From Orenia metallireducens (GTDB lineage Bacteria; Bacillota; Halanaerobiia; Halobacteroidales; Halobacteroidaceae): a stretch of DNA of 64,000 nt. Position numbers and translations under genes: made by a program. Positions 7,659 through 33,484 of the stretch are shown one piece after another. Position 1 is the stretch's first letter. The number at the start of each line of letters is the position of its first letter. The notes under the pieces were generated by a model, which ran no database searches, was not told the origin of the DNA, and saw nothing but the letters and a program-made list of their open reading frames with translations. The DNA is taken from the NCBI RefSeq assembly GCF_003001995.1, contig NZ_PVNB01000002.1, forward strand, positions 1 through 64,000, in the 5' to 3' direction.

Positions 7659-8169
7659 ACATATGCCTCCTTATAATCTTATAGAATTTTGGCTTATATA
7701 TAAAATGTTCTTTAAATTTAAAACCTTTTATATGTTTTAATATAAACTAAGACTATTAACCTAATATTAACTATATGTTAATTTTTAATTAAATATAATC
7801 AGTTTTAGTGATGATTATAGATAGCATAGGTTTGATTAGAAAGATAAGAAAATCTTATGGAAGGATACGAAGTGTGATAACTTACTTGTAAAAAGGATTT
7901 ACAGTAGAAAATTCTAATATATTAAATTTAAACAGAAAAATAGATATTTATATTTAGAATATTCTATCCTGTTTATTTTTTATAACTCAAGATTTCTGTA
8001 TGGTTATAGGTATTATTTAGTCTAAGTATATAATCTTATAGTATAATTATTTACTTAGACACCTGATTAAGGTGTCTTTTTATACCTTCTCTTATACAAT
8101 AACCTTTAACATATATGGCTATTAATTCATATGTTGAAGAGTGATTAAATGTAAAAGGAGGTATAATGG
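7659..8169. other. intergenic: two hairpins, possible small RNA
   Basis: No convincing ORF. A TATAAT-like box lies near 7791-7796. A long imperfect hairpin at 7931-7982 (AAACAG ... CTGTTT followed by ATTTTTTAT) could end a transcript of about 180 bases. At 8019-8060 the inverted words AGTCTAAGTA / TACTTAGAC belong to the AAGTCTAAGT palindrome family. A clear terminator is at 8057-8082. Confidence 0.35.
8057..8082 (+). terminator. rho-independent terminator
   Basis: AGACACCT-GATTA-AGGTGTCT followed by TTTTTAT. Confidence 0.75.
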
Positions 8170-8334
8170 ATGGAGAAAGTTGCTAGGAAAGTCGCTGAGA
8201 TAGATAAGCTAATAGAGAAGTATAAATCAAAAATAAATAGCCCAGATACTTCGAAAGTAGTAAAGATAGCATCTCAGCATATGATTAGAGATTTAGAAAT
8301 TTATAGAGCTAAGATCTCAAAACAGCTTAATTAA
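8170..8334 (+). CDS. small helical protein, unknown
   Basis: 54 residues, MEKVARKVAEIDKLIEKYK then SPDTSKVVKIASQHMIRDLEIYRAK. An excellent AAGGAGG precedes the ATG at 8170 by eight bases (another ATG at 8166 is in a frame that stops at once). Two amphipathic helices with a short Pro-containing turn. The SQxxxxDLEIY segment is faintly like Spo0E-type phosphatases but lacks the SQELD signature, so I do not assign it. A terminator-like hairpin follows at 8500. Confidence 0.6.
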   Translation: MEKVARKVAEIDKLIEKYKSKINSPDTSKVVKIASQHMIRDLEIYRAKISKQLN

Positions 8335-9330: not shown

Positions 9331-9589
9331 TAATATTTTCCTCCTCCATCTTGGTTTATGGTATTTATTTCTTCATTTATATTAATATCCCTTTGTATAA
9401 TTTGGAAAAATCTCAAGATAAATATATACTATACTTTATCTATAAAGTACTTTGTTTATATTTTGAATTTATTACTGATTAATCTCATCTGCAGGAACTA
9501 TTAATTTACAAATTATTATGGAATAAATTAACATGTTAGGTTAGTTTGAATATAATAATGTATATTAAACTAAAGAAAGGGGTGATTTG

Positions 9590-9826
9590 ATGGGAATGTA
9601 TCGCCGTCCAAGACCGCCAAGACCAAGACCTCCACGACCTGGTAGATGTCCTAGAGGATCAAGAGAGTATGTAGTTAGAAGAGGAGATACTTTTTATACG
9701 ATAGCACGAGACTTTAATACAACAGTAGCGGAATTAAGAAGATTAAATCCAGGTATTAATCCAGATAGGCTTAGAGAGGGGCAGATTATCTGTGTTCCAG
9801 GTAGAGGTCCTTGTCCATATTATTAG
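9590..9826 (+). CDS. LysM protein with Arg/Pro-rich N-terminus
   Basis: 78 residues. The N-terminal 25 residues are an Arg-Pro repeat (RPRPPRPRPPRPG), followed by one LysM domain (about 28-72): EYVVRRGDTFYTIARDFNTTVAELRRLNPGI ... EGQIICVPG. LysM binds N-acetylglucosamine glycans such as peptidoglycan. The lack of signal peptide and short basic leader resemble spore coat or cortex-associated LysM proteins (SafA-like), suggesting targeting in the mother cell; this is inference. Start ATG 9590 chosen because GAAAGGGGTG lies six bases upstream. Terminator at 9879. Confidence 0.85.
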   Translation: MGMYRRPRPPRPRPPRPGRCPRGSREYVVRRGDTFYTIARDFNTTVAELRRLNPGINPDRLREGQIICVPGRGPCPYY

Positions 9827-32382: not shown

Positions 32383-32389
32383 TAATGAA

Positions 32390-32415
32390 AAAAGCTGGTC
32401 AATTGACCAGCTTTT
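32390..32415. terminator. bidirectional terminator
   Basis: AAAAGCTGGTCAA / TTGACCAGCTTTTT between rubredoxin and the convergent tiny-peptide array. Confidence 0.8.
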
Positions 32416-32419
32416 TGCT

Positions 32420-32545
32420 TTAATATTTAATGCCTGGTTTAACTCCTGGCTTTAAACCAGGCTTGAGTTCTGTACTACCACCGAAGAATAATGGTAGAAG
32501 TAGTAGTATAATAAGCCAAAGTAGGTTACCACCATATAATCCCAT
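32420..32545 (-). CDS. tiny membrane peptide 4 (41 residues, PG-rich tail)
   Basis: Last of four tandem genes. MGLYGGNLLWLIILLLLPLF then FGGSTELKPG and a LKPG-VKPG-IKY repeat tail. One helix with a glycine turn, as in the other three, but the C-terminus is a proline-glycine-lysine repeat. GGAGG seven bases before ATG. Function unknown; see findings. Confidence 0.75.
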   Translation of the reverse strand: MGLYGGNLLWLIILLLLPLFFGGSTELKPGLKPGVKPGIKY

Positions 32546-32573
32546 AAGAGTTCCTCCTTTATTAAATTTTAAA

Positions 32574-32660
32574 TTAGTATTTTAGTCCCATATCTCCACC
32601 AAGCAGTAATAAGATAAGAATTAGGAAAATAATCATCATATTATCATCATATAATCCCAT
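32574..32660 (-). CDS. tiny membrane peptide 3 (28 residues)
   Basis: Begins MGLYDDNMMIIFLI, a Leu-rich helix, then GGDMGLKY. Near-identical to the first gene of the array. GGAGG upstream. Too short for most gene finders. Confidence 0.8.
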   Translation of the reverse strand: MGLYDDNMMIIFLILILLLLGGDMGLKY

Positions 32661-32697
32661 TATGTACACCTCCTTTAGAAGTTAGATTAATAATAGT

Positions 32698-32787
32698 CTA
32701 ATACTTCATTCCCATATCTCCGCTAAAAAGTAGTAAAATAAGAATTAAAAAGATAAATAACATATTATTTTCACCATATTCACCCAC
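32698..32787 (-). CDS. tiny membrane peptide 2 (29 residues, GTG start)
   Basis: Begins MGEYGENNMLFIFLI, then SGDMGMKY. GTG start with GGAGGG seven bases upstream. Same N-terminal MGxY, hydrophobic core and GDMGxKY tail as its neighbours despite different codons, showing selection at protein level. Confidence 0.78.
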   Translation of the reverse strand: MGEYGENNMLFIFLILILLLFSGDMGMKY

Positions 32788-32838
32788 TGGATATCCCTCC
32801 TTTAAATGTTATAATAGAGATTAATTATTAATAATTAC

Positions 32839-32925
32839 TTAATACTTGATTCCCATATCTCCGCCAAGAAGTAATAAGATGAGAATTAAGAAGATGATCA
32901 TCATATTATCATCGTAAAGACCCAT
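32839..32925 (-). CDS. tiny membrane peptide 1 (28 residues)
   Basis: First of the array. Begins MGLYDDNMMIIFLI, ends GGDMGIKY. GGAGGG eight bases before ATG. Gaps to the next genes are 51, 37 and 28 bases, so the four are likely one transcript with a promoter in 32926-33178. Confidence 0.8.
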   Translation of the reverse strand: MGLYDDNMMIIFLILILLLLGGDMGIKY

Positions 32926-33178
32926 TATGTATCCCTCCTTTTAGTAAGTGAATTTTACTTAAAGCTTATTTAGACAATGCTTTTCTTGCGTTTTCAATAC
33001 ATAATATACATTAGGAGCTAAATTGTTAATGGAAATATTTTGAATGATAGATTTATTCTTATAATCTGCCAGTTATCCCTAATAAAGATGGTTGCGTAAT
33101 GATATCTGTTTTTATTTGAATTATTTAAAATATAAATCCTTAGTATTACAAATAATAGCTTTGAGGGGGGAATTATAA

Positions 33179-33484
33179 ATGAGATTGAGCCAAGAGAATA
33201 GAGCTAATGGACTAGTTGATGCGGATTATTGCCTTAAGGTAGCCCATTGTATGTTAAATGTCTTTGATGAAAAAGAGAAGGAAAATCATGGTTTTAATAG
33301 CCTAGAGATGCTTATGATAAAAGCAGTCTTTGATGATATCTTTGAAAATACTATCAAAGAACGCTATAAGGCAGGGCGTGATGAGGTAATGAACTTTTTA
33401 TCAACTGCTAATAATGATTTAGCAATCAATCAATCTCAGGACAATATAATTAATTTCTTGAATTTTTTAGATAGAGATCATTAA
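33179..33484 (+). CDS. small helical cytosolic protein, unknown
   Basis: 101 residues, all helical by composition: LVDADYCLKVAHCMLNVFDE, then LEMLMIKAVFDDIFENTIKE then YKAGRDEVMNFLSTANNDLA. No signal peptide. GAGGGGGG RBS just before the ATG. No family recognised. The 345-base gap after it holds only a terminator at 33631. Confidence 0.65.
   Translation: MRLSQENRANGLVDADYCLKVAHCMLNVFDEKEKENHGFNSLEMLMIKAVFDDIFENTIKERYKAGRDEVMNFLSTANNDLAINQSQDNIINFLNFLDRDH

Follow-up and report, generated by a model that had tools for sequence, protein, structure and literature searches.

Four tandem genes for very small peptides lie on the minus strand of the window, by which we mean the whole 64,000-nucleotide stretch of Orenia metallireducens DNA analyzed here. 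Reading leftwards, these encode peptide A (32839-32925, 28 aa, ATG start, MGLYDDNMMIIFLILILLLLGGDMGIKY; ORF with AAAAGGAGG and the family core), peptide B (32698-32787, 29 aa, GTG start, MGEYGENNMLFIFLILILLLFSGDMGMKY; ORF with AAAGGAGG), peptide C (32574-32660, 28 aa, ATG start, MGLYDDNMMIIFLILILLLLGGDMGLKY; ORF with AAAGGAGGTG) and peptide D (32420-32545, 41 aa, ATG start, MGLYGGNLLWLIILLLLPLFFGGSTELKPGLKPGVKPGIKY; ORF with AAAGGAGG). Between successive genes lie 51, 37 and 28 nt. The ribosome site AAAGGAGG is found at each start, with its GGAGG 7-8 nt before every start codon. These positions, lengths and gaps, and the strong GGAGG at each gene, are as given in an earlier note made from the letters of this DNA. 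Peptides A, B and C end in the tails GGDMGIKY, SGDMGMKY and GGDMGLKY, and peptide D has a divergent core and a KPG-repeat tail. An AlphaFold model of D places a single helix at residues 6-22 with low confidence (mean pLDDT 64.8) and says little about assembly.

The array stands alone, with a terminator downstream and a divergent gene upstream. The hairpin terminator (AAAAAGCTGGTC-AATT-GACCAGCTTTTTT, 32388-32416), read directly from the sequence, is usable from both sides, and a convergent plus-strand rubredoxin gene, identified with Pfam, lies opposite. A predicted sigma-K-type promoter of the array (TTAAC, a 16-nt spacer and TATATTAT) occupies 33000-33029 on the minus strand. The divergent gene upstream (33179-33484, plus strand) encodes 101 aa, matches no Pfam family and adjoins the array in genomes G001 and G002 too.

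As a chance control, we generated 100 versions of the window with a third-order Markov model and counted GGAGG-preceded ORFs of 18-60 aa containing FL[IV]LILL. Three such ORFs occur in the real window and none in the 100 Markov versions, so the array is not a product of chance. The array and its neighbors are syntenic in G001, of the same genus, with three peptide genes, and in G002, with four; the orthologue of D is the last array gene in both. Comparison of B, C and D with their G001 orthologues yields 26.5 synonymous and 7.5 nonsynonymous changes (pS 0.41, pN 0.032), and the peptides are therefore under purifying selection, as the earlier note had proposed. The B orthologue in G001 starts with ATG and has 9 synonymous codon changes that leave the peptide unaltered, C is an identical peptide there with 5 synonymous codon changes, and 11 of the 12 codon differences between A and C are synonymous. 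By these comparisons, the four ORFs are real, selected peptides.

A similarity search with one 28-aa peptide against 151 genomes, at a loose E-value of 10, gave matches in 31 genomes, many of them clustered. We found members by reading loci for small hydrophobic ORFs preceded by a Shine-Dalgarno (SD) sequence. In the peptides, about 25-50 aa long, a variable N-flank with much Gly, Asp, Tyr, Phe and Asn leads into a near-invariant core (Fxx-FLILILLxLG), and a short C-flank follows; the flanks are slightly acidic on average. Genes with the core FLILILLLLG number in the hundreds. In 86% of 273 distinct members (median length 31 aa), the strictly hydrophobic run measures 12-14 residues. The MGxY and GDMGxKY pattern reported in the earlier note is present in the array, but these flanks belong to the array's subfamily only (a Natroniella member ends in GGDIGLKY and a G005 member in QGDMGVKY); what relatives share is the core. 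The member collection was gathered using this core. Only 13 hydrophobic small ORFs without it lie beside family genes, D peptides and near variants included, and conservation of the core is therefore not merely a selection bias.

Neighboring members share a strand in 108/115 pairs, and most of the short gaps between them measure 25-60 nt. The window genome alone holds five family clusters, on contigs C2 (the window's own), C6, C7, C14 and C36, with up to 15 matches to the core profile. There is no recurrent neighbor gene, the commonest neighbor cluster occurring in 9/155 loci. Searched in a named genome collection, a DNA pattern combining SD, start and core is found in 108 stretches, including Halanaerobiales MAGs, Natroniella, Moorella and Desulfotomaculum relatives, and also in Carboxydothermus, Fervidicola, Thermincola and Fermentithermobacillaceae. 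Two matches to this pattern in Helicobacter were set aside as a different protein (MEFLMSIFFILILLFLG...). Homologues in tandem arrays exist in many related genomes. The earlier note had named a lack of homologues with the MGxY/GGDMG pattern in related genomes as refuting it, and such a lack is not what we see. Taken across these searches, the peptides form a large unnamed family, often tandem, in many Bacillota.

Neither Pfam nor NCBIfam returned a credible family for the window peptides or for 49 members scanned, in agreement with the earlier note, which had recognized no known system. Matches to betacoronavirus NS7B and DUF3309 (E 0.003-0.007) were judged to be low-complexity hydrophobic matches, and our literature search retrieved no relevant description of such peptides or of the core string. 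The core also occurs in longer proteins, as [NP]xxLFLILILL followed by 20-60 further residues, 40-50 in some genomes, and several have a helical-looking domain there (L079:217-435, L088:507-716, L128, L170, L214, L201). Some of these longer proteins are also preceded by a sigma-K site. The core looks like a portable module.

To relate the family to endospore formation, we compared matches to the core profile with matches to the SpoIVA model (PF09547) in 399 genomes of the phylum, with the 59 SpoIVA-negative genomes as a negative control. The core profile matches 102/399 genomes and SpoIVA 340/399, and all 102 lie within those 340; the family is found in 0/59 SpoIVA-negative genomes (Fisher P 7e-9, with genomes counted as independent and relatedness ignored). 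The association also holds within one taxonomic family, f3, in which G023 has SpoIVA and the peptides and four other genomes (G013, G019, G027 and G029) have neither. In a second family, f2, of the same order as the array's host, SpoIVA is present and most genomes also encode sigma-K, but the peptide family has zero members. The peptides are therefore not essential for sporulation.

Upstream of the family genes, AC-N16-18-CATAnnnT occurs in 150/308 cases against a shuffle mean of 6. This sigma-K pattern is the only two-part sigma pattern tested with clear enrichment, and the sigma-A pattern upstream of family genes is not enriched. A sigma-K-type promoter (GTAAC-N17-CATAnnnTA type) precedes 139/207 (67%) of the first-in-operon genes, compared with 8/77 (10%) of downstream family genes and 26/736 (3.5%) of larger control genes at the same loci. 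When upstream regions are anchored on CATAnnnT alone, a −35 GTAAC emerges at a distance of 17 nt, with AC in 130/149 regions and only AT in 3/149. The sigma-E and sigma-K promoters of B. subtilis share their −10 element, and a C replacing T in the −35 marks sigma-K (PMC517825). The situation in C. difficile is very similar, where the promoter of sigK itself has a −35 AC and a −10 CATATAAT (PMC3789822). Because AC prevails in the −35, we assign the family promoters to the sigma-K rather than the sigma-E class and reject control by sigma-E. Sigma-K-class regulation of the family is well supported by these motifs. Promoters and SpoIVA co-occurrence give strong support to a tie between the family and sporulation, a hunch that the earlier note had voiced in likening the array to spore peptides.

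In the window promoter, the AC of the −35 lies at 33026-33025 and the −10 (TATATTAT) at 33008-33001. With a promoter matrix trained on family members outside the array's own taxonomic family (f1), this site scores 12.6 and takes rank 8 when every position of the 64-kb window is scored on either strand, and the orthologous G001 and G002 arrays retain it. Its −10 deviates from CATAnnnT at the first base, a single mismatch that counts against the sporulation reading. The same-genome arrays on C6 and C36 have the full sigma-K motif. In three upstream regions from the array's own family (L044, L091 and L053), AATATTAT or TATATTAT replaces CATAnnnT. Sigma-K in the array's lineage may thus not need the first C of the −10.

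Sigma-K-type sites are also seen elsewhere in the window. In the interval 8109-8334 (plus strand), the best one (score 19.5) stands directly before a 54-aa ORF (8170-8334, plus strand; MEKVARKVAEIDKLIEKYKSK...) of no Pfam family, possibly another sporulation gene. In the interval 9531-9826 (plus strand), a weaker one (score 10.9) precedes a 79-aa Pro/Arg-rich LysM protein (9587-9826, plus strand), plausibly a spore coat or cortex-binding protein.

In the window genome, sigK is interrupted after about codon 72 (G000:C31:30747-32481; L237:4748-6482). At the break, a gene for a 485-aa large serine recombinase (Resolvase and Recombinase domains) starts on the opposite strand, and phage-like genes (HTH and ImmA-like by eye) lie beyond it. 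The C-terminal part of sigK was not found in this assembly, which counts against the sporulation reading. In G002 and G007, both pieces of sigK are present, on separate contigs. The likely cause of the break is a putative skin-like element that mother cells excise, combined with fragmentation of the assembly.

Our reading is that the array is probably a late mother-cell sporulation operon of four genes making spore-envelope peptides, and that the peptides are probably uncharacterized building blocks of the endospore envelope. The sequence itself shows that the genes are real and conserved, that their family is unnamed, that it co-occurs with sporulation genes and that its promoters are of the sigma-K type; from this we infer the envelope role, the location and self-assembly of the peptides and transcription of the array in this strain. 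After sigma-K activation in the mother cell, sigma-K RNA polymerase would transcribe the array leftwards from about 32995, and four tiny peptides would be made, each a short Leu/Ile-rich helix between Gly/Tyr/Asp-rich flanks. Most likely these would become inserted in, or assembled onto, layers of the developing spore that derive from the mother cell, whether outer forespore membrane, coat or crust. Packing of the peptides against one another would be the task of the near-invariant core, while contacts or cross-links with other coat material would be made by the variable flanks; dosage and variety would come from the many tandem paralogues. The hydrophobic run of the core is shorter than an ordinary membrane-spanning helix. 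A more specific version, which we put forward only tentatively and consider rather doubtful, is that the core (mostly 12-14 residues, Ile/Leu-exact) self-assembles, in many Bacillota outside the lineages that have YjcZ, into an undescribed hydrophobic spore layer to which the longer proteins with helical domains are anchored in some genomes, and which replaces YjcZ functionally.

Two other roles within sporulation are conceivable. Peptides made last could accumulate in the mother-cell membrane and, holin-like, lyse or permeabilize it to aid release of the spore; sigma-K timing and the many copies of short, very hydrophobic helices fit such a role. We nevertheless consider it unlikely, as no lytic enzyme gene or other recurrent neighbor accompanies the family, the slightly acidic average of the flanks is unlike typical cationic pore-forming peptides, and the exact conservation of the core together with Gly/Tyr-rich flanks would favor specific packing over disruption. 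The very small size, strictly conserved core and sporulation-specific promoter would also suit small adaptors or regulators of the SpoVM type in the outer forespore membrane, each paralogue modulating a partner protein. This is quite improbable given the many copies, in varying number (the profile matches up to 15 times in the window genome), flanks that vary freely and the lack of a linked partner gene. The Gly/Tyr-rich flanks, the high copy number and the lack of a partner gene lead us to favor a bulk structural part over either a regulator or a lysis peptide.

Explanations outside sporulation fare worse. Were these ordinary vegetative membrane peptides of spore formers, with a promoter signal that is coincidental, the imperfect −10 of the window array would be accommodated, but the promoter frequency (139/207 against 26/736 control genes), the lack of sigma-A enrichment and the lack of the family from all 59 SpoIVA-negative genomes make this very improbable. 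Size and a single hydrophobic helix would likewise be expected of type I toxin-like peptides or of small membrane proteins derived from phage, a reading to which we give almost no weight: the promoters are of the sigma-K type, and the flanks are net acidic. Phage origin in particular was rejected, D having no match in phage records and the family pattern a single match in 2.9 million viral contigs.

The family is widespread and multi-copy, lies outside Pfam and NCBIfam, and has genes short enough for routine annotation to miss. Because it occurs only with SpoIVA in the genomes searched and has sigma-K promoters, it is a candidate missing component of the endospore envelope in spore formers that have received little study, such as Moorella, Desulfotomaculum relatives, Carboxydothermus and Natroniella.

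Among known sporulation products, the micro-peptides SpoVM and CmpA resemble the family in being under 40 aa, expressed in the mother cell and active at the forespore surface. SpoVM and CmpA are single-copy, amphipathic or soluble, and made from early promoters, whereas the family peptides are multi-copy, strongly hydrophobic, arranged in arrays and preceded by late sigma-K promoters. Small coat and crust proteins of Bacillus share with the family late mother-cell expression and a Gly/Tyr-rich composition with poorly conserved flanks; unlike the family, they have no fixed hydrophobic core.

The YjcZ peptides of Bacilli (PF09680, YjcZ_2) have the same architecture as the family: the Gly/Tyr-rich N-flank varies, the hydrophobic core is invariant and ends in Gly, and the C-flank is short. 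They are 25-70 aa long and, as in the family, occur in many copies per genome, sometimes in tandem. Their promoters are of the same type (AC-N15-18-CATAnnnT before 6/7 examples drawn from genomes with PF09680 matches), and yjcZ is listed in the B. subtilis sigma-K regulon (PMC517825). The YjcZ core (FALIVVLFILLIIVGAA) differs, being two residues longer from F to G than the FxxFLILILLxLG of the family. The YjcZ_2 model has no match in the window peptides or 49 members and none above cut-off in 61 relatives, family-rich genomes among them, and YjcZ_2 and the peptide family occur together in 0/399 genomes. Alignment of the family core profile with 7 YjcZ peptides by hhalign gave a probability of 6.6% over 4 columns, from 24-column profiles of low power. 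The YjcZ-like impression recorded in the earlier note therefore stands for architecture and promoter type and falls for family membership, although remote common descent is possible with profiles this short. The non-overlap with YjcZ raises the question of whether two unrelated families of tiny peptides serve one function; on present evidence, the array would work like the YjcZ peptides from outside their family.
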